The position numbers and the translations under genes are program-made. This document shows, piece after piece, positions 5,149-62,480 of a stretch of 64,000 nt of DNA (positions are counted from its first letter, which is position 1; the number at the start of each line of letters is the position of its first letter). The notes beneath the pieces were generated by a model. It did not search any database. It had not been told where the DNA came from and saw nothing but the letters and a program-made list of their open reading frames with translations. This DNA is from a virus. Where the stretch lies: IMG/VR virus record IMGVR_UViG_3300025929_000012, positions 46,329 through 110,328 of that record; one strand, written 5' to 3'.

Positions 5149-5763
5149 CTAGAAGAGCATGCCCTCCGGTGGCGGGGGGACGGCTAGCGCGATGCGGCGG
5201 AAGGCGCGGGCCAACTGCGTCCGGCTAATCCCCGACTCGGCAGCCAGCGCCAGGACGGTTGCCCCGGCCCGCCAGCGCGCGTACAGGGCGGTGTACACCT
5301 CATCGTCGTACTTGGTGTTGACGCCGCGCTCCGCGTTGACCTTCTGGGGGACTGGCTCCAGATGATTCGGGTTGACGCACCGCCTGTGAAGGCACTGCCG
5401 CCCGCCGGGGCACGTCAGCCGCTCGCGGGTGTGGCACAGGTGGTCAAGTTGGAGGCCAGCCGGGACCGGCTTCACGAAGCGCTCATACGCCCAGCGATGC
5501 GGGCCGACTACCTTCCTAGCGCCGTTCCCGAACTCGCCGTAACCGTCGCGATTGACGCTAGCCGTCCACGTCCAGCACCCGCCGGGCTCCTTGCGGACAT
5601 GAGAGAAGAACCGCTCCTCCATGTCTTCGATGACCGTGGAGCGTGCCCCGCCGAGGTTGCCGCTGTTGCGCTGCCGCAGGTAGTGCATGTTGCACAACCC
5701 GAGCGCGTAGTGAGGCTTGGGGCAACTGCCGTCACCGGCATAGCCGCAAGTACGCTGTTGCAT
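5149..5763 (-). CDS. Free-standing HNH endonuclease, homing type (204 aa)
   Basis: N-terminal Cys-rich segment (CGYAGDGSC...LCNMHY), then an HNH core with LDHLCHT and CVNPNHLEPV (the metal-binding His and Asn), and a C-terminal helix-turn-helix (LALAAESGISRTQLAR). This is the layout of phage homing endonucleases that cut unoccupied alleles. It interrupts the tail region just after the tail-tube gene. It has its own promoter-like box and hairpin leader (5793-5848), very like the leader of the HNH gene at 14455-15759. Confidence 0.85.
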   Translation of the reverse strand: MQQRTCGYAGDGSCPKPHYALGLCNMHYLRQRNSGNLGGARSTVIEDMEERFFSHVRKEPGGCWTWTASVNRDGYGEFGNGARKVVGPHRWAYERFVKPVPAGLQLDHLCHTRERLTCPGGRQCLHRRCVNPNHLEPVPQKVNAERGVNTKYDDEVYTALYARWRAGATVLALAAESGISRTQLARAFRRIALAVPPPPEGMLF

Positions 5764-5792
5764 GTCGATGCCTCTGACCAGGTGTCGGCGGT

Positions 5793-5848
5793 GCTCCGGG
5801 GTCTGCGTCTGGGAAGTCCAGACTCCGGAGCCTTATTCGTACAGTCTA
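5793..5848 (-). promoter_or_regulatory. Promoter and hairpin leader of the HNH gene at 5149
   Basis: On the minus strand a TAGACT -10 box (5843-5848) is followed by a strong stem-loop with arms 5793-5805 and 5819-5831, then by the ATG at 5763. Distance from box to ATG is 80 bases. The same order and spacing recur at 15792-15842. The hairpin may also end transcription from the tail-tube gene. Confidence 0.55.
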
Positions 5849-5871
5849 TCGCATTACCGCCATTATCCTGC

Positions 5872-6480
5872 CTATGAGGTCGCGATGGCGGTCAGGTCAA
5901 TTAGAGAGACCGAGGACATGGGGCAGGTCGCTGAAAGGGTCACGGGATAGAGCCGCGCATTAGCGGCTCTCCGGAAATCTGTCTTCACGCTCCCGGCGCT
6001 CATGACGGTGGGCACCGACAGTACCCGGGCGAAGCCGAGCTGGTTCTTGCCGACGACCGCACAGGCAAGGCTCGCGAAACTTGTCGAAAGTACGAGCGTG
6101 GACTTGCCGGGCTGGCTGGCGCCGGGGGCGGTGACCGAGATCGAGCCACCGTTGCCGTACGCCAAGTTGACGTTCGCCAGCGTCTCCTCGGAGAGGCTCG
6201 TGGTTATCTGAAGGCTGACGTTGGTGACGATCACCGCGACCGGCGTCGTTTGCTCTTCGACATTGATGTCGTTAGTCGACGGAGCGTAGTTGACGGAAAC
6301 ACCCTGGTCGGTGGCCCCGACGTAGGACCAGCCGCCGGACACCCAGGAGGAGCCGACGCCGAGGTTCTGATCGGACGGGAGGGCGGTGCCGACGGGGGCG
6401 GTAAATAGAACACCAATTCCATACAAGACGTTGGTGCTCGTGTAGGCGGGAGGGGTGTAGAGCAGCGGCGCACCAGGCAT
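5872..6480 (-). CDS. Probable major tail (tube) protein (202 aa)
   Basis: Ser/Thr/Gly/Val-rich beta-type sequence with no charged clusters, typical of tail tube subunits. It is placed downstream of the tail-terminator candidate and upstream of the chaperone and tape measure genes. The stop-proximal part of the gene is less GC-rich than the rest of the window, next to the HNH gene. The call is from composition, size and synteny. Confidence 0.65.
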   Translation of the reverse strand: MPGAPLLYTPPAYTSTNVLYGIGVLFTAPVGTALPSDQNLGVGSSWVSGGWSYVGATDQGVSVNYAPSTNDINVEEQTTPVAVIVTNVSLQITTSLSEETLANVNLAYGNGGSISVTAPGASQPGKSTLVLSTSFASLACAVVGKNQLGFARVLSVPTVMSAGSVKTDFRRAANARLYPVTLSATCPMSSVSLIDLTAIATS

Positions 6481-6601
6481 GGGCGGGGGCCTCCTTCAGG
6501 CGGCGGGCATGGAGAAGGCCCGCGCCAGGACGGGCGGGCCGGGGTGGCGTACGGGGCGTTTAAGCGCGGCGGGATGCGGGAAGGGCGCTACGATTGGTGA
6601 C

Positions 6602-6838
6602 ATGGGCGACACGCTGACGAGGCCGGCGGCGGCATGCCGTGACGTGATGGGCACGCTCGCGGTCCGCCTGTGCACGCTGCAGGAGGCGCGGATGGCTTCC
6701 GGGGCGGTGCTGCTGCTCCCCGCCGGGACCTGCCCCGATGCCGGGGACCGCTACTGCGGCTGGCCCGTGGTCAGGTGCTGCTGCATCCGGGAGCCGATGA
6801 TCGGACTGCCGGGTCGCGATCGGGGGCGCGTGGCGTGA
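6602..6838 (+). CDS. Cysteine-rich hypothetical protein (78 aa)
   Basis: TACGAT lies 7 bases before ATG 6602, so the transcript is probably leaderless. Cys residues cluster in the C-terminal half (TCPDAG, YCGW, RCCCI). First gene of the plus-strand block 6602-7932, inserted between tail-tube and tail genes. Function unknown. Confidence 0.55.
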   Translation: MGDTLTRPAAACRDVMGTLAVRLCTLQEARMASGAVLLLPAGTCPDAGDRYCGWPVVRCCCIREPMIGLPGRDRGRVA

Positions 6839-22444: not shown

Positions 22445-23799
22445 CACTGGTTCTCCTTCGCCAGGAACCGGGCGTACGCCGCGCGGTCCTTCACTGACCA
22501 TGCGCCGCCGCGGGGCTTGGCGCCGATCAGGGTGGCGGGGGTGCCCTGGGGGCCGTTGTTGTCGTGGAGCGTCGCGGAGTCGAACAGGTCACGGGCGATC
22601 GCCTGCCGGAACGTGCCGGACACGGCGGCGTGGGTTTCCCGCAGGAACGTCTCCGGGACGGCCCGGCCGGTCTTCGCTGCGCGGGCCTGCGCCCGCTTCA
22701 GTGCCTCGCCCGTGTCGACGGTGACGTACTGGCCGTGGACGTGATAGCCGGCCTTCCGCGCCGCGGTGACCTTCCCGGCGAGCTTCTCATAGTGGGAGTC
22801 ACCGGTGCCGTCGAGGGTGAAGTCACGTTTCCCGGCGACCGCCCGGTCCATGATCTTCTTCGCGACCCGCGATGACTCCTCATGGACGTACGCGGCGGCG
22901 GCCTTGTCCCCGGCGGCCTTCATCGCGGCGTACTCCGGCAGCTGCGCCTTGACGTCGTCCGGGTTGATGACGACGCCGCGCATCTTGCCCGTCGCCGACT
23001 TCCCCGACGCCGGGCCGCCGCCCATGAACGTCGCCGTCGGGTCCGCGGACCGGGCAGACCCGGCGAGCGCCCCGGCGATGATCTTCTCGTGGAGGGCCTG
23101 CCGTTCGGGGGTGAGCTGCCCGCCCCTGGTGTGCGCGTCGAGGCTGTCGGCGGCGGGGCCGGCCCCGTCGAGCTTGACCCAGCCGTGCTTGTACCGGTAC
23201 GGCGCGTGAGCGAGGTTGATCACGTCGCGGTGCCTGCCGCTGAGGGCTGGCTTCCCCGTGAACGCCGGGTTGGCCATCACCCCGGCCTTGCGCCTCGCGA
23301 TGCCCTGCGCGGCGGCGAAGGCGCCGGCCTCCTTGAGGAGGGCAGTAATCGGCAGGCCGGCGCGGACCACCGGCATCCCCGCCGGGACCTTCGCGCCGCC
23401 CTCGGAGTCGGCGAGGACCCTGCCCGCCCAGGTGTGGTGCCCGTCAAGGACCCGGTTGTCGGAGCTGATGATGACCGGCTTGGTGTCGGTGCCGGCCTTG
23501 ACGGAATCAGCGATGCCCCGTATCGCGGCCGTGTCCCCGGTCGCCTGCGTCGGGCGCAGCGACCTGGCGGGCACCCTGGCGGAGGTGACCGTGATCCCCT
23601 TGGCCTGCAAGTGCGCGATGAACTTCGGCATGAGCGCTTTCGACGGCACGTACTGCCCGTTCACGGTGCCGGAAAGCTGGGGCATGTCGCCGCGGTCGAT
23701 GCCGAGGTTCCCGTGGTAGGTGACCGTGCCCCCGGACGGGACCCCGATGAGCCGCCAGCCGTGCGTGTACCGCTGCGGGGCGCCGGCCAGGTCGATCAC
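22444..23799 (-). CDS. ParB-like / zeta-toxin-type kinase fusion, probable capsid cargo (451 aa)
   Basis: Two copies of a motif LA.AP.RY.HGW (residues 4-15 and 195-207) divide the protein. The first half has a ParB/sulfiredoxin-like segment (VIISSDNRVLDGHHTW, 109-124). The second half has a P-loop GGGPASGKS (260-268), a helical core and later RDFTLDGTG, as in zeta toxins and related polynucleotide or sugar-nucleotide kinases. Zeta toxins phosphorylate UDP-N-acetylglucosamine. In a virion operon between MuF and scaffold genes the protein may be packed into the capsid and ejected. No epsilon antitoxin is recognised. Confidence 0.75.
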   Translation of the reverse strand: MIDLAGAPQRYTHGWRLIGVPSGGTVTYHGNLGIDRGDMPQLSGTVNGQYVPSKALMPKFIAHLQAKGITVTSARVPARSLRPTQATGDTAAIRGIADSVKAGTDTKPVIISSDNRVLDGHHTWAGRVLADSEGGAKVPAGMPVVRAGLPITALLKEAGAFAAAQGIARRKAGVMANPAFTGKPALSGRHRDVINLAHAPYRYKHGWVKLDGAGPAADSLDAHTRGGQLTPERQALHEKIIAGALAGSARSADPTATFMGGGPASGKSATGKMRGVVINPDDVKAQLPEYAAMKAAGDKAAAAYVHEESSRVAKKIMDRAVAGKRDFTLDGTGDSHYEKLAGKVTAARKAGYHVHGQYVTVDTGEALKRAQARAAKTGRAVPETFLRETHAAVSGTFRQAIARDLFDSATLHDNNGPQGTPATLIGAKPRGGAWSVKDRAAYARFLAKENQ

Positions 23800-32165: not shown

Positions 32166-33866
32166 TCACCTCCACGTGCGGACGTTGGGCCGGTCGGGGC
32201 GGCCGTCGTCGTCCTGCGGCGCCCACGCGTCCGGGGAATCCCACCCGTCCCGCCTGTCCCGGTCATCCGGACCACCGGGACGGCGACGCGACCTGTCCTC
32301 CGTCAGCCGCTCCAAGTCGGTGTGCGCCGCCCACTGCCTCGCCGACGGAGAATGAGGCAGTGAACGCGGCCAGTAGCTCTGAACGCAGGCGTCACCGTCG
32401 TCCGTGCTGCGGCCAAGCCGCTTCTCGATCTCGTCCTTGGACTCCACCGCGATCTTGCCCCCGGAGGTGACCGTCCACTGAGGGGCCGACAGGTCGCCGA
32501 GCAGCATCTCGTCGTCGGGGAGGCACAGGTCCGAGCCCGCCGACGGGTCAAGCTGTTCCCTGAGGCCCCACCAGGCCGCGCTGCGGGTGCAGTTGAAACC
32601 GAGGGTGCCTGTGCTGTCCATGCGATCCGTGCGGTTCGACGCGCCGAACGCCTCCACCTTGCAGCCCTGCTCATGCAGCCGGTCGTACACGCCGCCGCCG
32701 ACGCCGACCACGTCAATGACCGCGGTGCGGGCCGGGTCCGCGTCGAGAACAGCCTTTACCTTGCCCGCGGTGACCATCGTGCTTTCCTTGGCCGTCTTCC
32801 GCAGCTCCACCAGCACCGGGCCGTTGCGGACCGCGATTACCGTCTTCGCGGTCCCGTACCTGGCGACGTCCACGCCCGCCGTGCGCGGGTAGTCCATGTC
32901 GGTGCCCGGCCTGCCCGCGAGGTCCCACTCATGCCAGCGCTCAACCGCCGCCTCGGCCCACGCCAGGGGGATGACCGAGTCCTCATCGCCGGCGTGGAAC
33001 TCGCCCAGCACCCGGTTCTGGTAGATGCTCGAATCGGGGCCCCACTGGAGCGCACGCTGGGCGGCCCATGCCGGGTCGATCTGCCCCGCCGCTATCGCCT
33101 GGTCGAGGGTTATGTGGACGGCGTGCCAGTCCTCGTAGCCGGGCTTGCGGGACTGGATGTCATAGAAGCGGCCAGACGGCGCACCGGGCGTTGACAGGGC
33201 CAGCGCGAACGCTTCCCCGGTGCCGTTCAGCGCGCCCTCGCAGGCGTCGAACGTGCCCGCCGGGATCGCCTTAGCCTCATCGAAGACGAACAGGAGGCTG
33301 TCAGCGTGCGCGCCCTCAATGAGGGCCGAGTTGGCGGACGCGCTGGCGAACGCCGCGCCGTGGTTGAGGCGCAGGTTCAGGTTCATCAGCTCATTGGGGC
33401 TGAACGGGTGGCCGCGAAGGCGGACGTTGAGCTCCTCGTGGGCGGTCAGCCGGTCACCGCGGACCTTGTCCCAGCGGACCCGGACGGCCCAGCGGTGGAT
33501 CTCCCTCCACAGGAACTTGGAGATCTGATGCCATGACCCGGCGGTGGTCGCGACCTTCCAGTCCACCCCGGCGGCCTCGCGGGTCAGCGCGAACCACAAG
33601 ACTGTTATCGCGGACAGCGCCGACTTGCCTGCGCCGTGCGGCGAGCGGACGCATACCCGCTTAGCGGCAGGCAGGCCGCCGATGATCTCCCGCTGGTAGG
33701 CGGTGAGGCTCTTGCCGCGCCAGTCGATGCAGTCCTCGGCGAACGCTACCGGGTCGTTGTAGTACCGCTGCGACGCCGCTGCCTGGCTGGCCGCTGCCTG
33801 CCGCTGAAGGTCACGGAGGTAGCGGAGACGGTCAGGCGGTGCCTGTACCAGCCGGGTCGTTGGCAC
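32166..33866 (-). CDS. Terminase large subunit (566 aa)
   Basis: ATPase: Walker A SPHGAGKS (residues 75-82) and Walker B LLFVFDEA (191-198). Nuclease: GVDVARYG (331-338, with the metal-binding Asp) and DVVGVGGGVYDRL. The C-terminal 50 residues are Arg/Asp/Pro-rich. It cuts and pumps DNA into the prohead. GTG start, overlapping the small-subunit gene by 35 bases. Confidence 0.95.
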   Translation of the reverse strand: MPTTRLVQAPPDRLRYLRDLQRQAAASQAAASQRYYNDPVAFAEDCIDWRGKSLTAYQREIIGGLPAAKRVCVRSPHGAGKSALSAITVLWFALTREAAGVDWKVATTAGSWHQISKFLWREIHRWAVRVRWDKVRGDRLTAHEELNVRLRGHPFSPNELMNLNLRLNHGAAFASASANSALIEGAHADSLLFVFDEAKAIPAGTFDACEGALNGTGEAFALALSTPGAPSGRFYDIQSRKPGYEDWHAVHITLDQAIAAGQIDPAWAAQRALQWGPDSSIYQNRVLGEFHAGDEDSVIPLAWAEAAVERWHEWDLAGRPGTDMDYPRTAGVDVARYGTAKTVIAVRNGPVLVELRKTAKESTMVTAGKVKAVLDADPARTAVIDVVGVGGGVYDRLHEQGCKVEAFGASNRTDRMDSTGTLGFNCTRSAAWWGLREQLDPSAGSDLCLPDDEMLLGDLSAPQWTVTSGGKIAVESKDEIEKRLGRSTDDGDACVQSYWPRSLPHSPSARQWAAHTDLERLTEDRSRRRPGGPDDRDRRDGWDSPDAWAPQDDDGRPDRPNVRTWR

Positions 33867-38648: not shown

Positions 38649-39161
38649 CTAGTACCAGTTGGGATTGGTGTGCTTCTCGTGCCACCATGCGCCGCACGGG
38701 TTGGCATAGGTGGCCGCGATGTAGTTCAGGCCCCACCTGATCTCCCAGTACGCGGACCCGCTGTTGGCCTGCCGCGCCTGGGCGTCGGTGAGGCCGAAGC
38801 CGCCGTACTCGTTTCCGAGGGTGCCGCCCCGGCCGGGCCCGCCGTGGGTCAGCGCCTGGGGGATGCCGAGCGCCCCCGACTGAGGGTTGGCGACCGACGC
38901 AGACCAGGTGTGCGCGGATTCCTCGTCCCATAGCAGGTCAAGGCAGTGCTGCTGCCTGGCCCCCCACCCGAGGGCGGCGGCCATCTCGTTGGCGAGCCGC
39001 TCGTTGGCGGGCATGCTGCTGTCCCGCACGGCCAGCACGGTCCCGCCCGAGAGTGCGTTACCCCCGGGGTGACGGTGGGCGGCGGCGTGGCTGGCCGGCA
39101 TGTACCCGGCGGCGGCGAGTACGGCGAACGTGCCCAGCGTGGCCCTGGTGCGCAGTTTCAT
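38649..39161 (-). CDS. Secreted lytic transglycosylase-like enzyme (170 aa)
   Basis: A signal peptide (residues 1-26, basic start, hydrophobic core, ASHA-A cleavage) is followed by a lysozyme-like fold: LLWDEESAHTWSASVANPQSGALGIPQA carries the likely catalytic Glu80/81, and EIRWGLNYIAATYANPCGAWWHEKH ends the domain. It cleaves peptidoglycan. With the NlpC/P60 gene it could open the wall for lysis, DNA entry or conjugation. Confidence 0.85.
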   Translation of the reverse strand: MKLRTRATLGTFAVLAAAGYMPASHAAAHRHPGGNALSGGTVLAVRDSSMPANERLANEMAAALGWGARQQHCLDLLWDEESAHTWSASVANPQSGALGIPQALTHGGPGRGGTLGNEYGGFGLTDAQARQANSGSAYWEIRWGLNYIAATYANPCGAWWHEKHTNPNWY

Positions 39162-39275: not shown

Positions 39276-39785
39276 TCAGGCCCGCGGGCGGGCGTAGCCG
39301 ACGACTTTCCCAGGGCCAGTGCCGCTCAGCGCGGAATCGACCCCGAACGGGTAGGCGCCGATCGGAGTGCCGGGGGCGTACGCCTGGATCATCCGGTGAG
39401 CGCCGGTCACGAGGCCGACATGCCCCGGCGCCTTGCGGGTGCCGTCGGCCCCGGCGAAGAACACCAGGTCCCCGGGCTGCGGGCTGGTGACGTGCGGCAG
39501 TTCCGCCCACTGCTCCTGTGACGTGCGGGGGATGGTGACGCCCGCGCGGGCATACGCCTCCATGACCAGGCCAGAGCAGTCGAACGAGTCCGGGCCGGTG
39601 CCGCCCCACAGGTAAGGCTTGCCGAGCTGGGCCTCGGCGTAGGCGAGGACCCGCGCGGTGACCCGGTCCCCGGCAGGGGCGCCGTGCCGGGCGGCGCGCA
39701 GGTGCGCCGCCGTCGCGGGGGCGTGTGAGGCGACCGCGAGGACGCCGCCGGCGGCGACCACGCCCAGGAACGCGCGGCGCCTCAC
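39276..39785 (-). CDS. Secreted NlpC/P60 peptidoglycan endopeptidase (169 aa)
   Basis: Signal peptide with a twin-Arg-like start (MRRRAFLG). NlpC/P60 core: DSFDCSGLV with catalytic Cys70, and GHVGLV with His122. It cuts stem peptides in peptidoglycan. Overlaps the upstream gene by 4 bases. Such enzymes are typical of actinobacterial conjugation modules and also of phage lysis. Confidence 0.9.
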   Translation of the reverse strand: MRRRAFLGVVAAGGVLAVASHAPATAAHLRAARHGAPAGDRVTARVLAYAEAQLGKPYLWGGTGPDSFDCSGLVMEAYARAGVTIPRTSQEQWAELPHVTSPQPGDLVFFAGADGTRKAPGHVGLVTGAHRMIQAYAPGTPIGAYPFGVDSALSGTGPGKVVGYARPRA

Positions 39786-40204
39786 CAGCGCCGTCCCCTC
39801 GAAGGGCCGGCGACCGCGGCGTGCAGGTCACGGGCGGCGCGCAGGATGTCATCGGGGCTGGCGTCCTGGTGCTCGCACGTCATCCACAGCGCCGTCTTCC
39901 GCAGGTGGTAGTCAGCGTCGCCGCCGGCTTCGCTGAGCCATGCCCGCCACTCTTCGGCGACGCCGTACACGCGGGCGCGGCCGTGGAACAGCGCGTTGCC
40001 GCGAGCCTCCAGGCGCAGGTAGCGGGCGGCGAGCGCGATCGTTACGGCCTGCGCCGCGAACAGCCGGTCAGCGACTGGCAGTTCCGGGTCAAGGCCGGTG
40101 ACGCCCTTCCACCAGGGGTCGGCGTGCACGCAGGCCACGTGCGGCCCGGGGGGCGGCGGGATGGTCAACTGGTCCTCCGCTGTGTACGGGATAAGAGTGG
40201 TCAC
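39782..40204 (-). CDS. Hypothetical protein next to ftsK (140 aa)
   Basis: Starts and ends in 4-base overlaps. Mostly helical ([39 protein letters not shown]). Function unknown; the coupling to ftsK suggests a shared process. Confidence 0.55.
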
Positions 40205-42186
40205 TGGGCTGCCTCCTGGCCGCTGATGAGCGCCAGCACGGCGCCCAGGTCTTCGGGGGCCTTGAGCACGTCGCGGGCCTTGGATCCCTCACTCGGCCCG
40301 ACGATGCCCCGGCTTTCCAGCAGGTCCATCAGCCGCCCGGCCTTCGCGAAGCCGACGCGGAGCTTGCGCTGGAGCATTGACGTGGAGCCGAACTGGGTGG
40401 TGATGATCAGCTCGGCGGCCTGGGCGAGGAGGTCCCGCTCGTCGTCGTCCACGATGCCCGCAGATCCCCCGCCGGCGTCCCCGTCCGGGCCGCCGCCGGC
40501 GGGCGGGGCCACGGTGGCGTAGGCGACCGGGCCGCAAGCCTTCACCTGGGCGACGACCCGGGCGATCTCCTCCTCGGACACGAACGCGTTCTGCAGCCGC
40601 ACCGGGCGGGACGCGCCCATCGGCAGCCACAGGCAGTCACCCTGGCCGGTCAGCTTCTCCGCGCCCGGCTGGTCCAGGATCACCCTGGAGTCAGTCAGCG
40701 ACGATGTCGCGAACGCCAGCCGCGACGGTACGTTCGCCTTGATCAGCCCCGTGACGACGTCCACCGACGGCCGCTGGGTGGCGAGCACCAGGTGGATCCC
40801 GGCAGCGCGGGCGAGCTGGGTGATCCGCACGATGGATTCCTCGACGTCACGGGGGGCGACCATCATCAGGTCGGCGAGCTCGTCGACGATAGCCACCAGG
40901 TAGGGGTAGGGCTCATACACCCGCTGCGAGCCGGGCGGCGGGACCAGCTTCCCGGCCCGCACCGCCTTGTTGAAGTCGTCCACGTGCCGGTAGCCCGAGG
41001 CCGCGAGGTCGTCGTAGCGGCGGTCCATCTCCCCGACGACCCACTCCAGGGCCTCGGCCGCCTTCTTCGGGCTGGTGATGACCGGGGTGATCAGGTGCGG
41101 CACGCCTTCGTAGACCGAGAACTCGACCCGCTTCGGGTCGATGAGGATCATCCGCACCTCCTCCAGGGTGGTGCGGGTCAGCAGGCCCGTGATCAGCCCG
41201 TTGAGGCAAACAGATTTCCCGCTCCCGGTCGCGCCGGCGATGATCACGTGCGGCATCTTCGCGAGGTTCGCCAGGACGATGCGGCCTTCCACGTCCTTGC
41301 CCAGGCCGACGGTCATCGGGTGATGGTCGGCGACCGCCTGCGGGGAACGCAGGACGTCACCGAGCATCACCGTCTCCCGGTCCTCGTTCCTGCGGGGCAC
41401 GTGGACGCCGACGGCCTTCTCGCCGGGCACGGGGGCCTGGACCATGACATCGCCCGGAGTCTTCGCCTCGTAGGCGAAGTTCTTTGCCAGCGCGGCGATC
41501 TTCTCCACCTTCACCGCGCCAGTGAGGGTCAGGTCATAGCGGATGACCTGCGGGCCGCTGACCCTGCCGGTGACGGCGGCGGGAATTTCGAACTGGGCAA
41601 GGACGGACTGCAGCGCCTTCGCGGCCGGGTCGTCCTCCAGGCTGGGATGGGGGCCGACCTGGGGTTCTGGGAGGCTGGCGAGAACAGCCGGGCCTGGCGG
41701 CGCGTACGCGGTGCCTGCCGCCGCGGGCACCGTAACGTCATCAGGGCCGGCGGGCTCGCTGGCGATGACCTGCCCGGCGAGTACCCCGGCGGCAGGCCGG
41801 GCGGCCTCGGTGACAGCAGCGGGCGGCTGGCCGGGCACGGGGTGGAAGGCCCGCCAGGAGCAGGACGCGGCGGTGAAGCCGCCGCCCGCGACCCAGGCGG
41901 CCTGCATGACCCCGCCGGCGCCGACCGGGGTGATGAGCACCGCGACAGTCAGCCACGCCGCTGCCGCCACCGCCACCATGATCACGGCCCGGCCGTCCGC
42001 GCGGGATGCCCTGGTGGCGATCATGAAGATGGTGACGGCAGCGACGGCGACGGCGGCGGCAGTGAGGCGCCCGGCGGGATGGCGGGCGGCCAGGTGGGCG
42101 ATGATCGCGTAGGCGTCCCCGGCGGCGAGCAGCAGCCACGGGGCCGCTGCTCGCCTGCCCGGCATCCCGGCTGCTGGGATGGTCAC
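40201..42186 (-). CDS. ftsK: FtsK/SpoIIIE-family DNA translocase (661 aa)
   Basis: GTG 42186. Three N-terminal transmembrane helices (about residues 17-88), then a motor with Walker A GATGSGKS (318-325), [10 protein letters not shown] and Walker [14 protein letters not shown] (about 430-442). The C-terminus (about 595-655) is a gamma winged-helix ([31 protein letters not shown] in parts), which reads DNA polarity motifs. It pumps double-stranded DNA at the membrane. In actinobacterial plasmids related TraB proteins move plasmid DNA between hyphae. Arrays of GGGTAAC lie 1.2-2.3 kb upstream. Confidence 0.9.
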
Positions 42187-42878
42187 GAGGCCTCCTTCGC
42201 CGGGCGCGGAGGGGCTGGCAGCCGGCCGGGACCGGGCTGGCCGCCGGCGGCCTGGGTGCCCGGGTGGGCGCGGCGCGGCGCGGCGGCCTTGCCGGCCTTG
42301 CGGTAGCCGCGGACGAACACGAGCGCGAGCACGACCAGGAAGGCCACGGCGATGATGACCACCGGGTGCCCCCCCGCCGAATGAGCGGCGGCGGCCGGGT
42401 GACGGTGACCGCCGGCGGGTGCCGTGAAGGCGGTGCCGCTGATGACGCCGGCGGCGGCGTGCCGGGCGCTGGCCAGCCCCTGACCGGTGCTGCGGGTGAT
42501 CTGGTGCCACCCGCCGATCACCAGGGCCAGCGCGGCGGCGAAGGTGACGGACACCGCGATCGTCCCGTGGTGATGATGGGCTTTACCCCGGAAGGCGCCC
42601 AGGAACGCGAAGACCCCGGTGACCGCCAGCACCGCCAGCAGGACCACCAGCCCGGCCCCGGCCCCGGTGACCTGCCACAGCACCGCGAGGCTCGGCGCGA
42701 ACGCGATCATGCCGCAGAACACGGCGACCGCGAAGATGACCGCGGCGGCCCGCTCGCACGCAGCCGTCCTCTTGCCCTTCGCCTCCGCCCCGCCGCCTTT
42801 CACGTGGTTCCGCATCGTGAAGACGAGGACCCCGGCCACGGTGGCGAGCACCGCGACGGCGGCCATTGGCCCGTTCAT
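42183..42878 (-). CDS. Polytopic membrane protein (231 aa)
   Basis: About five hydrophobic segments (residues 5-20, 43-60, 68-92, 106-124, 175-192), His-rich loops, and a Pro-rich C-terminal tail. Coupled to ftsK by GTGA. Probably part of the same membrane complex, as spread (Spd) proteins are on Streptomyces plasmids; inferred from context. Confidence 0.65.
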
Positions 42879-42906: not shown

Positions 42907-43539
42907 TCATCCGAAGATGAGGATGATGAGGGCTAGCACCCCGGTAATGGCGAGCACCGTGAAAATGCGCGCGAACCGGTCACCGGCCCAGTCAATCCGG
43001 GTGCCCGCGAACACCAGCGCCTCGCCGGCGATGATGAGCGCTTTCCCGGTGAGCTTCGCCGGGGCGGTAACGGCCAGGTGGCCGGCGACGAATGCCCGCC
43101 CGGCCCACGGGGCGCCGATCTCCTCCAGGACCGGGTGGGCGGTGACGTGCCGCCAGTGCTGGCGCATCGTCTCCGTGCTGGGGCTGGCGAGCTCGGCGAG
43201 GAGGCCGCCGGGGCCGCCGCCGACCGCCTCGCTGCCGGCCAGGGTCCCCAGGTGCGCCCGCAGGCGGAGGCCGGGCGCGGAGCGGGCCTCCCGGGCGGCG
43301 GGCCCGCCGGGCCCTGTTACCCACTCGCTGGTACCGAGCCAGTCAAGCGACCGCGGGTCGTTTCCCCCGCCGGGGTGATCGCCGTTACCCGGCGGGGTAA
43401 CGCCGGAGGTGACAGCGGGGGTAACGGGCGGGGTAACGCCGGGGGAAACATCCGGGGTAACAGTGCCGGGGGAAACGGCGTAGTCCGGGTCGGCCCAGTA
43501 GTCAACTGTGCCGCCGGTGTCATAGGGCATGGCGGTCAT
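42907..43539 (-). CDS. Membrane-anchored protein with VTP repeats (210 aa)
   Basis: ATG 43539. Residues 20-55 repeat VTPP/VTPA/VTSG with a 4-residue (12-base) period; this is where array A of the GGGTAAC motif lies, read here as GTT-ACC. The middle is helical and the C-terminus has a transmembrane segment (IFTVLAITGVLALIILIFG). Located between ftsK-linked membrane genes. Confidence 0.6.
   Translation of the reverse strand: MTAMPYDTGGTVDYWADPDYAVSPGTVTPDVSPGVTPPVTPAVTSGVTPPGNGDHPGGGNDPRSLDWLGTSEWVTGPGGPAAREARSAPGLRLRAHLGTLAGSEAVGGGPGGLLAELASPSTETMRQHWRHVTAHPVLEEIGAPWAGRAFVAGHLAVTAPAKLTGKALIIAGEALVFAGTRIDWAGDRFARIFTVLAITGVLALIILIFG
43395..43476 (+). repeat. Array A: GGGTAAC motifs at 12-bp period
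   Basis: Plus strand copies start at 43395, 43407 (variant AGGTGAC), 43419, 43431, 43443 (variant GGGAAAC), 43455, and a variant at 43470. An opposite copy at 43384-43390 forms with 43395-43401 a palindrome around GGCG. Coding frame here gives V-T pairs, different from array B. Confidence 0.8.
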
Positions 43540-44039
43540 CGGGGGTCCTCCTGTCCGGGTCGCCGGGCCAGCGCCCGGAACGTCGCGGTGACCGGGGCGA
43601 GCGGCGCCCACCCGGCCGGGTTGAGCTTCCGGGGCTCCCGGAACCACGGGTCGGGCTGCTCGCCGCGCTCGACCGCGGCGGCCAGCGCGTCGATCACGTG
43701 GACCGTCGCCCAGCACCAGGCGGCGGCGTAGTGCCAGTTACGGCGGCTGGCAGGACGAAACACGCTGGTCAGGTACTCCACGGCGCGGGCCAGGGCCATG
43801 AACGGGTCAGTCTCCGCGTTGACCCTCGCGACGCCGGGAGCCCCCCGCCGGCCCCTTCCCTGCAATACCACTGCCGGGGAAGGGGTATAATCACGCGCCG
43901 GCGACGCATGCCTGCCCGTCGGGCGAGGCCACGGCCCCCCTTCGAGGGCACCCGGGCCCACGGGGGAGGGGCGTTCGGGGCGGCCCCGCGGGCCCGGCCC
44001 GGTAACGTTCTGGTCACGGATCTCTCGCATGCCGGTCAC
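43536..44039 (-). CDS. Hypothetical protein, N-terminal part uncertain (167 aa)
   Basis: ATG 44039 overlaps the upstream stop as ATGA. The first 65 residues are Pro/Gly/Arg-rich low complexity and cover a stretch with a plus-strand TATAAT (43886-43891). The last 90 residues look coding (ALARAVEYLTSVF...NWHYAAAWCWATVHVIDALAAAVE). A shorter start is possible. It lies between arrays A and B. Confidence 0.45.
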   Translation of the reverse strand: MTGMREIRDQNVTGPGPRGRPERPSPVGPGALEGGPWPRPTGRHASPARDYTPSPAVVLQGRGRRGAPGVARVNAETDPFMALARAVEYLTSVFRPASRRNWHYAAAWCWATVHVIDALAAAVERGEQPDPWFREPRKLNPAGWAPLAPVTATFRALARRPGQEDPR

Positions 44040-44935
44040 TCCCCGGCCGCTGACTGCCCGGCAGCGCGGGCTTCCTTGACTCGCTTCACCAGCGGCGCGA
44101 CGCGCTTCGGGGTGCCGCCGTACTCGTCCATGAAGGCGCGGACGGTGAGGTCCAGGCCGGCCCGCTCGCGCTCATCGGCGAGCTTCATCGCCAGGGCCCA
44201 CATCTCGTCGTCGGCCATGGGGGGCTTGCGCATCAGGTCCGTGACGGTCGCCAGCGGGCCCGTCTCGTCCTCCGGCGGCTCGATGGCGAGGGGGGTGGCA
44301 AGGGGGAGCGCGGCCTGTCCGGCGTTACCCTCCGGGAGGCCCTGCGCGTTACCCGCGAGGCCCCCGGACGCGTTACCCCAGCCGTTACCCTCCCTGTTAC
44401 CCCCGGCGTTACCCTGGCTGTTACCCCGGCTGTTACCCGGCCTGGAGAACCGGGCCGCGAGCGCCTCACGCTCCGCCTCAAGCCGCCGCGCCTCCTGCCG
44501 GGCCTCCCACCGGGCGAGGTCCGCAGACTGGGATGCCGAGTACATGAGGACCCCGACTGCCGTGAGGGCCGCCAGGTCCAGGCCGTAGGACGCGACGCCC
44601 GCCGGCACGGTGCCCATCCCCGGCGTGAGGACCTTGATGCCGGACGACGCGGACGCGAACATCAGGGCCGCGGCGATCCCGCCCACCCATATCTTCAGGG
44701 TCCAGTGGAAATTCACGTGCGCGGCCACGTGGGACAGGATCGCCACCAGCAGCGGCACCGCGAGGCCGACTGTCCAGCCGATTAGCGCGGGCATGTGCCC
44801 GAGCTTCACGTGCTGGTAAATGTTCAGCTCAACCGAAATGGTCAGCGCGATGACCGTGCCCGCCTCGCACGCGTACGCCACGTCCTTGCGGAGCGTCTTC
44901 GGACGCGGGTCGTGTAGCGCCTTAATGTCACTCAA
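44036..44935 (-). CDS. Four-helix membrane protein with HTH-like tail, DUF2637/Spd-like (299 aa)
   Basis: Four transmembrane helices in residues 20-145 (VIALTISVEL, IGWTVGLAVPLLVAI, IAAALMFASASS, LAALTAVGVLMYSAS). A coiled coil follows (WEARQEARRLEAEREALAARF), then a Gly-Asn repeat GNSRGNSQGNAGGNREGNGW (array B), and a C-terminal HTH-like part (LTVRAFMDEYGGTPKRVAPLVKRV). The layout recalls SpdA/DUF2637 proteins of actinobacterial conjugative elements; family is not certain. Confidence 0.6.
   Translation of the reverse strand: MSDIKALHDPRPKTLRKDVAYACEAGTVIALTISVELNIYQHVKLGHMPALIGWTVGLAVPLLVAILSHVAAHVNFHWTLKIWVGGIAAALMFASASSGIKVLTPGMGTVPAGVASYGLDLAALTAVGVLMYSASQSADLARWEARQEARRLEAEREALAARFSRPGNSRGNSQGNAGGNREGNGWGNASGGLAGNAQGLPEGNAGQAALPLATPLAIEPPEDETGPLATVTDLMRKPPMADDEMWALAMKLADERERAGLDLTVRAFMDEYGGTPKRVAPLVKRVKEARAAGQSAAGE
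44324..44438 (-). repeat. Array B: eight GGGTAAC motifs at 12-bp period
   Basis: Plus-strand GTTACCC starts at 44324, 44348, 44372, 44384, 44396, 44408, 44420 and 44432; all steps are 12 or 24 bases and all have one orientation (GGGTAAC on the minus strand). The coding frame gives Gly-Asn pairs. The orientation faces array A across about 0.85 kb. Confidence 0.85.
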
Positions 44936-60955: not shown

Positions 60956-61171
60956 ATGCCGATCGAATTCCGGTTCTCAACCGGTGACAAGGAGATAGCC
61001 GACAGCATCGCCCGCCAGTACGGCGGCGAGGTGCATCCGCTGGACGGCCCTATCGGCGGGTACGAGGTCGTGGCCGTCATCGCCAGCACGGACGCTGAGG
61101 ACGACGCCACCTTCGATGGTGACCTCACCTACTGGAGCGACGACGACGTGCCGGCCGGGGACGTGGCCTGA
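60956..61171 (+). CDS. Small acidic protein (71 aa)
   Basis: ATG 60956, 2 bases after the exonuclease stop. Alpha/beta start (IEFRFSTGDKEIADSIARQYGG) and an Asp-rich C-terminal half that could mimic DNA. The neighbour starts at 61173. Function unknown. Confidence 0.6.
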   Translation: MPIEFRFSTGDKEIADSIARQYGGEVHPLDGPIGGYEVVAVIASTDAEDDATFDGDLTYWSDDDVPAGDVA

Positions 61172-61172
61172 C

Positions 61173-62480
61173 ATGCCGATCGACGGGACGCTCCTCGGGC
61201 TGCAGCGGCGTGACGCGCGGCTCGGCGAGATCCGCATCGGCACGTCCGTGGAGGTGCCCGGGAAGAAGGGCCGGCAGCCGCAGCGGCTGGAGGCATTCCG
61301 GTTCACCACCTCAGTTGAGCTGAACGCGCGGGCCATCGTCGCCAAGTTCGGCGGGGAGATGGCCCCCTGGGAGCGGCGGAAGGGCCGCTGGGAGGTCATC
61401 ACCGCCTGCACCGCCCTGGAAGTGTTCGTGCCCCCGGCCGGGGCGGCGGTCGACACGAACATGGAACTGTGGGACGACCAGAAGCGGCTCCGGGTCTGCG
61501 ACGGCCGTATCGAGCAGATCAGCGGCGAGCCGTGCTCCTGCCCCCGCCCCGCCGACCCGTATGACCCGGCGTCAGTGCGGGCGGCCCTCGACGAGCGGCA
61601 CCGGCTTGCCTCCATGCGGCACCCGCAGGCATGCAGGCCCCGCACCCGCATTAACGTCACCATCCCCGGGCTGCCCGGCCTCGTCGGCGTGTGGTGCCTC
61701 AGCACTGGCAGCGAGAACGCCGCCGTGGAGATCGCCGCCGCCGGCGACGCGATGATGTTCGCCCGCGAAGGCGGCGTCTACCTCCCCGCGGTGCTGTCCA
61801 TCCAGTGGCGGAACCGGGCCGACACAGGGGCGCCCTACCCGGTGCCGTTCCTCCAGATCGGCGTGTCGATGGCGGAGCTCGCCGCAGGGCAGTTGCCTGC
61901 CGGGGTGGGCGGCCTGGCGGCCCAGCTCAAGGCCGCCGCGGAGCACCGCGCTATCGCCGCTGACGGGGACCAGGCCCGCGCTATCACCGCCGGGGGCGAG
62001 GAACGCGTCATTACCGGGAAGACCCTCCCGCCCGGTTCTAAGCCCCCCGCTGCGGACGATGACGGGCAGTGGCCGCAGGAGCCTGAGGAGCCCGCGGACG
62101 GCGTCCTGGCCGAGGATGAGGTGGACTGGCTCGCCGCCGACTCGGAAGCCGCAGCGACCTTCACCACGAAGGACCAGGCCCGCGCACTGTGGCGGGCAGT
62201 CGCGGCCAGGGCCAGCGCTGGCGTGTACGGGGCAGACGACGCCGAGCGCATCCAGGGCACCATAACCGCACGGCTGGCGGACCTCGCCGCGCCCGCTGGC
62301 ACGCTCGCCGACGATGACCCGTGGCGGCTGAAGGCCGAAGGGCTCGGCGACGAGCACGACGCCGCTAACGCGCTTGACGAGCTCGCTGAGCGTACTTCAG
62401 CCGGGGCCGTGGACCCCCGCCGTTCTGCCCTCATCCGCGCCGCCATCCTGGCCCGCTTCCCCCGGGCGGAGGCGGCATGA
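61173..62480 (+). CDS. phiC31 Gp3-like (recombination directionality factor-like) protein (435 aa)
   Basis: The first 200 residues fit this family: LGEIRIGTSVEVPGKKGRQPQRL, FRFTTSVELNARAIVAKFGGE, VCDGRIEQISGEPCSC and CRPRTRINVTIPGLPGLVGVWCLSTGS (each in parts). In phiC31, Gp3 turns the serine integrase to excision. Homologues are also common in exonuclease operons, where they may only bind DNA. The C-terminal half is acidic and helical. No integrase is in the window. Confidence 0.65.
   Translation: MPIDGTLLGLQRRDARLGEIRIGTSVEVPGKKGRQPQRLEAFRFTTSVELNARAIVAKFGGEMAPWERRKGRWEVITACTALEVFVPPAGAAVDTNMELWDDQKRLRVCDGRIEQISGEPCSCPRPADPYDPASVRAALDERHRLASMRHPQACRPRTRINVTIPGLPGLVGVWCLSTGSENAAVEIAAAGDAMMFAREGGVYLPAVLSIQWRNRADTGAPYPVPFLQIGVSMAELAAGQLPAGVGGLAAQLKAAAEHRAIAADGDQARAITAGGEERVITGKTLPPGSKPPAADDDGQWPQEPEEPADGVLAEDEVDWLAADSEAAATFTTKDQARALWRAVAARASAGVYGADDAERIQGTITARLADLAAPAGTLADDDPWRLKAEGLGDEHDAANALDELAERTSAGAVDPRRSALIRAAILARFPRAEAA

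Follow-up and report, generated by a model that had tools for sequence, protein, structure and literature searches.

Which protein reads the two arrays of the short word GGGTAAC that lie beside an ftsK-type gene of this phage, and what might the reading be for? The window, i.e. the whole stretch of DNA analysed here, comprises 64 kb (positions 46,329-110,328) of a record of 110,328 bp, and the phage nature of the element was recognised by profile search from its large terminase, portal and major head protein. The window contains 18 copies of GGGTAAC, whereas 100 dinucleotide-shuffled versions had 3.1 on average and never more than 8, and 14 of the 18 lie within 1.1 kb. The count over the whole record returned the same 18 copies, all of them in the window and none in the 46 kb to its left, indicating that the word is clustered and not equally frequent elsewhere in the element. 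All six exact GGGTAAC pairs with a spacing of 12 bp fall inside the arrays. The arrays reported in the initial annotation are thus real, and a recount returned array B just as it was first described (Table 1). Array A additionally contains the near copies GGTGACA at 43408 and GGGAAAC at 43443 and 43470. The two arrays had been said to face each other, which holds for the main blocks; since the gene carrying array A contains four exact copies on the plus strand and two on the minus strand, the description is limited to these blocks. Relative to the membrane protein gene that carries array B, eight copies lie within the gene, six downstream (P 2e-10) and none upstream.

Table 1. Features of the array locus and its surroundings, in window coordinates.
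Feature	Position	Strand	Remarks
Large terminase	32166-33866		about 10 kb from the arrays
Transglycosylase-like gene	38649..39161	-	downstream of ftsK; phrog_12661
NlpC/P60 cell-wall hydrolase gene	39276..39785	-	downstream of ftsK
FtsK-type DNA translocase, alpha + motor + gamma	40201..42510	-	PF01580 3e-65, PF09397 3e-23, PF17854 1e-14; start codon uncertain
FtsK gamma domain, residues 690-749	40264..40443	-	with recognition helix of 18 residues
Multi-TM protein gene	42183..42878	-	directly before ftsK
Small protein gene with C-terminal membrane segment	42907..43539	-	array A in its 5' part
Isolated GGGTAAC	43316..43322	-	downstream of array A
GGGTAAC inverted against 43395-43401	43384..43390	-	palindromic turn-round GTTACCC-GGCG-GGGTAAC
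Array A, four exact GGGTAAC	43395..43461	+	steps 24, 12, 24; read Val-Thr; in the next-but-one gene after the membrane protein gene
Small gene between array A and array B	43536..44039	-	
DUF2637-like membrane protein gene, 299 aa	44036..44935	-	prediction, 4 predicted TM helices; without Pfam or PHROGs family match
Three-helix HTH-like C-terminal domain, residues 243-291	44063..44209	-	proposed GGGTAAC reader; low-confidence AF2 model and family pattern
Linker, predicted disordered, residues 166-235	44231..44440	-	AF2 model; coincides with array B
Array B, eight exact GGGTAAC	44324..44438	-	12- or 24-bp steps; in linker codons of the membrane protein gene

As first noted, the arrays lie in two genes and are read differently, as Gly-Asn in array B and as Val-Thr in array A. 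The Gly codon of array B is GGT in 8/8 repeats, while 13 other window genes use GGT for 7.9% of their Gly residues; the codon before each Gly ends in G (8/8), and every Asn is encoded by AAC. The exact copies of array A use GTT for Val, a codon with a share of 4.3% elsewhere. Based on this codon choice, both arrays are selected as DNA and not as peptide. The unrelated peptides encoded by the arrays of related elements agree with the earlier claim that the DNA word is what is conserved, and this, together with the terminase, portal and head genes, supports the view of a cis-acting DNA locus of a phage.

FtsK relatives from IMG/VR and from plasmids were scanned for arrays without presupposing any word. 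In many of them, one array or a pair of arrays is found 0.3-2.5 kb upstream of ftsK, and the arrays of the Micromonospora and pSROS01 plasmids lie further upstream. The place of the arrays in the element is conserved, and each element has a word of its own: GGAACTC in L011, GTGTTCGG in L024, GGTTCC in L032, GGGTAC in L023, GTAACG in L019, GGTAACA in L021, GCGGCAA in L025, GCGGAAA in Micromonospora plasmids including pVMKU (L158), and GCGGAAC in the Streptosporangium plasmid L157. Facing arrays as in the window recur in L011/L166 and L157, the second array being intergenic and directly before ftsK in L011 and L157. No comparable array was seen at L159, a chromosome-type ftsK locus from a plasmid record, or at cluster J mycobacteriophage loci; L152, another chromosome-type ftsK locus, showed weak clusters elsewhere and no comparable array. 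At nearly all array-bearing loci, the gene that holds the first array encodes a protein with about four transmembrane (TM) helices, followed by a linker and a helix-turn-helix (HTH) domain at the C terminus. Pfam DUF2637 was matched at the corresponding place in L019 (1e-16), pSROS01 (4e-6) and, just below the cut-off, L021 (6e-4), and was not matched there in L011, L024, L025, L032, L157 and L158. Genes at the place corresponding to the array A gene are present in L019, L009, L021 and L031, and a scan of genome contigs that used the small downstream membrane protein as query gave one match.

Some other arrays deserve separate mention. The element of L024 (GC 48%) carries more than 50 exact copies of GTGTTCGG at 5296-6714, in two blocks and in all three codon phases of one gene. 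On pSROS01 (L151:6774-6986), eight copies of CCGCACA stand directly upstream of ftsK, unlike the GTACGGA array in its DUF2637 gene, and the clt repeat of pJV1, CCGCACA[C/G][C/G], has the same core (PMC3583192). An IMG/VR-wide search for triple GGGTAAC at 12 bp gave 81 loci, most of which are tandem peptide repeats or due to chance. GGGTAAC arrays were also seen before or inside small-terminase genes (phrog_57; L118:2158-2450, L130, L080:1-825, L088, L146, L148, L077 and L116), with variable spacers, a Gly-Asn reading and phage GC contents of 45-72%; these are probably the packaging sites of those phages, carried inside the terminase gene.

The membrane protein of the window has no Pfam match, and its comparison with DUF2637 (PF10935) by hhalign gave a probability of 0.7%. 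It is linked to the array-bearing group through L011/L166, with a BLASTP value of 2e-6 across the TM domain, and searches of IMG/VR, plasmids and phages returned no close relatives. Its AF2 model is poor (pLDDT 52) and shows four long helices, a disordered linker and three C-terminal helices; the relative L310, with a deeper alignment, was modelled by AF2 as four TM helices, a disordered linker and a three-helix HTH at a pLDDT of about 95. Positively charged ends predict that both termini of the window protein are inside. GTAAC is common to the words of L174 and L179, and the HTHs of these two bear a weak likeness (25-29% identity) to that of the window protein. A PDB sequence search with the HTH gave nothing significant, and in the Foldseek search the top match, a DeoR DNA-binding domain, and the others, mostly DNA-binding HTH domains, were likewise not significant. 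Since the HTH has no close relative, its proposed assignment as the GGGTAAC reader rests on architecture and the family pattern, along with the weak likeness to L174 and L179.

How general the pattern is was examined in a survey of DUF2637 and DUF2637-like genes, counted after removal of near-duplicates. DUF2637 proteins are encoded on 219 actinobacterial (Streptomyces and Kitasatospora) plasmids, at 73 IMG/VR loci including Streptomyces phage VWB (gp24, with arrays of CGGGTGC), and in 195/199 sampled Streptomyces genomes. An array was called present at an array score of at least 6, a home-made statistic calibrated only on control windows of the same loci, and by this measure 12/16 ftsK-type elements, 4/6 Streptomyces plasmids and 33/41 other IMG/VR genes carry arrays. 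The total for mobile elements is 49/63 non-redundant genes, compared with 2/29 chromosomal genes and 4/129 control windows. Most of the 49 loci have the word in several codon phases or on both strands, and copies per element range from 5 to more than 50; some arrays of relatives in low-complexity linkers may be peptide repeats that inflate the scores. Downstream of the gene, the word is overrepresented in 13/49 loci (0.5 expected), and upstream it generally is not. A search for T4CP genes found them in plasmids only, and among 24 IMG/VR DUF2637 records outside L335-L348, 22 had no FtsK-type gene and all 24 no T4CP. The DUF2637 subfamily L335-L348, in which 0/11 genes have arrays, consists mostly of elements of 60-130 kb with an HTH like DLTGAAIGRALGQTAQNGRKVRNRLL. 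Chromosomal DUF2637 proteins (L350-L379) have a membrane domain much like the plasmid ones and another C-terminal domain, apparently without arrays. DUF2637 is hardly mentioned in the literature searched, in which nothing was found on the function of VWB gp24.

We compared the 49 loci pairwise, counting a word as shared when at least 6 of 7 bases agree and HTHs as similar at a similarity of at least 0.4. The word is shared in 96-97% of HTH-similar pairs and in 3% of the 402 pairs that are TM-similar and HTH-dissimilar. The partial Mantel correlation of HTH with word, given TM, was 0.23 and was reached by 0/2000 permutations, while the residual correlation of the TM domain with the word was smaller (0.15). 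Two natural swaps illustrate this: the word GCGG[A/C]AA is kept with the HTH in L160/L182 (similarity 0.36 for HTH, 0.07 for TM), and GTAAC in L174/L179 (0.73 and 0.03). Throughout the family it is the HTH that the word tracks. When we inspected 57 HTH-similar pairs, the flanks matched for 24% of word copies, and for at most 25% in 30/57 pairs; as the flanks mostly differ, the shared words are not accounted for by simple inheritance of the linker. Because array and HTH are neighbours in one gene, exchange of the linker-HTH block could yield part of the covariation without binding. For newly fetched genomes chosen by HTH alone, the word matched the prediction exactly or with a single base changed at 5/8 loci, although L388, which is among these five, shares its HTH with the previously known L295 and is only partly independent. 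A held-out test with the L330 HTH against 296 genomes gave no matches. We also observed one-residue, one-base covariation, the LGVSPAT HTH (L310) occurring with CGGCTCA and LGVSRAT (L384 and L386, in separate genomes) with CGTCTCA.

From these results we infer that the HTH binds the word. We consider it on balance probable that the arrays serve as binding sites for the product of the membrane protein gene (44935-44036), not for FtsK, and that they tether element DNA to the membrane. Four membrane helices would anchor the protein, and beyond a disordered linker its C-terminal HTH would lie in the cytoplasm. Its own linker codons would contain the putative sites (array B), with a second set in a gene shortly after (array A). 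If the HTH reads the arrays, the element DNA would be bound at the membrane at the very locus that encodes the tether, and many membrane copies of the protein would hold the phage DNA there. There, the DNA would be within reach of the FtsK pump, the small membrane proteins and the cell-wall hydrolases, which could act in its transfer, partition or placement. Beside FtsK, the tether could serve dsDNA transfer or segregation, as RacA aids SpoIIIE and SpdB2 works with TraB; in VWB-type phages without FtsK, it would have to serve something else or use host machinery. We are least sure of the purpose: tethering seems to us about evenly balanced, and transfer specifically is doubtful; transfer, loading or resolution, as initially proposed, is a possible final purpose. 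Findings that count against the membrane protein as reader include the lack of arrays in L335-L348 and most chromosomal DUF2637 genes, and the difference between the ftsK-proximal word CCGCACA of pSROS01 and that of its DUF2637 gene.

Several known systems resemble parts of this arrangement. Binding sites within the gene of the binding protein are found for P1 pacA (pac) and lambda O (ori), which differ in being packaging or replication proteins without a membrane anchor. SpdA2 of pIJ101, a DNA-binding protein with sites (sps) as codons of its own gene, has a demonstrated role in plasmid stability (PMC4170104); pIJ101 has, however, one conserved 12-bp palindrome in 1-3 copies, whereas here the words are element-specific, their copies more numerous, and the protein is predicted to be membrane-anchored. 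SpdB2 of pSVH1 is likewise an integral membrane protein of an actinobacterial element and interacts with TraB, but it is reported, as cited in PMC4170104, to bind dsDNA non-specifically, and it has no site array. The HTH protein RacA of Bacillus subtilis, bound to clustered ram sites, tethers DNA to the membrane with DivIVA and helps SpoIIIE at a distance (PMC6593407); unlike the protein proposed here, RacA is soluble, depends on DivIVA and is chromosomal, and its sites are not known in its own gene.

If the membrane-protein reading is correct, the mobile branch of DUF2637 could be assigned a function, sequence-specific attachment of DNA to the membrane, and a protein's disordered linker would be seen to provide, in its codons, the site to which the same protein binds. 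The evolution of helix-turn-helix specificity could then be studied on dozens of natural HTH-word pairs, and gp24 of phage VWB offers a cultured, directly testable case. The chances are roughly equal that DUF2637 and its look-alikes of actinobacterial phages and plasmids form a large undescribed family of membrane-anchored array readers with exchangeable HTHs and arrays in their own linkers, i.e. a retargetable tether working with or without FtsK.

The arrays might instead form a replication origin or a partition site, as iterons or a centromere that either the HTH protein or some other factor recognises, and attachment to the membrane would then help the element to replicate or segregate. Iterons inside the gene of the initiator are known, for instance in lambda O, and the VWB gp24 gene lies between DNA-metabolism genes and the terminase. 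SpdA2 binds sites in its own gene and stabilises its plasmid (PMC4170104). The array-bearing Micromonospora plasmids, however, have a separate ParA/ParB, and we regard this explanation as unlikely, though with some weight.

The initial annotation had pointed to FtsK, and profiles indeed found alpha, motor and gamma domains in the neighbouring protein. Recognition of GGGTAAC by FtsK gamma or a TraB-like reader, loading at the arrays as at KOPS or clt, would fit an FtsK with gamma 2 kb away and the array directly upstream of ftsK in L157, L166 and L151. The clt sites of Streptomyces conjugative plasmids (pSVH1, pIJ101, pJV1 and pWTY27) are read by TraB's own C-terminal wHTH and are clustered 7-9-bp repeats near the translocase gene, so that both systems have clustered, element-specific short repeats near an FtsK-type translocase on actinobacterial mobile elements (PMC3583192). 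The gamma recognition helix, however, is identical in the window and in L032 and L023, three elements with different words; the identical helix also occurs in elements without detected arrays, a nearly identical one in plasmids with or without arrays, and the word does not vary with the helix. Arrays of this kind are also present in VWB-type phages whose records have no FtsK or T4CP gene. Unlike in TraB/clt, the word tracks the HTH of a separate membrane protein, and the translocase scored 78 bits against a cut-off of 800 with the plasmid TraB model NF041214. KOPS are spread and polar over the chromosome, whereas GGGTAAC is clustered, and a record-wide strand-biased spread was not found in the 110 kb. 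We judge this explanation, taken as a whole, to be quite unlikely. The gamma domain itself is not supported as the reader, in view of the same helix with different words and of arrays in FtsK-less elements, contrary to what was first supposed.

A role of the HTH protein in regulating transcription from the membrane, with the arrays as operators, is very unlikely: the HTH is DeoR/Lrp-like in shape (a fold match that is not significant), but the arrays lie inside and after the gene, nearly all loci lack upstream enrichment, and copy numbers reach 50 or more (L024). Small-terminase binding at a packaging (pac/cos) site would agree with the GGGTAAC arrays in and before small-terminase genes of other phages (L118, L130, L080); this is highly improbable for the window, where the large terminase is 10 kb away, and the same system is found on plasmids. 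Selection of the GN and VT peptide repeats, with the DNA word as a by-product, is scarcely credible and is strongly contradicted for the window by the GGT bias and by the occurrence of the word in different reading frames, on the other strand, in other genes and between genes, even though the arrays sit in low-complexity linkers and several relatives have linkers of PEPEP or PQPT type.

PADLOC found no defence systems, and the phage has a zeta-toxin-like gene at 22444-23799 of the window (PF06414 3e-26). A recombination-directionality-factor-like (Gp3-like) protein is encoded at 61116-62480, which hints at a serine integrase in the element.
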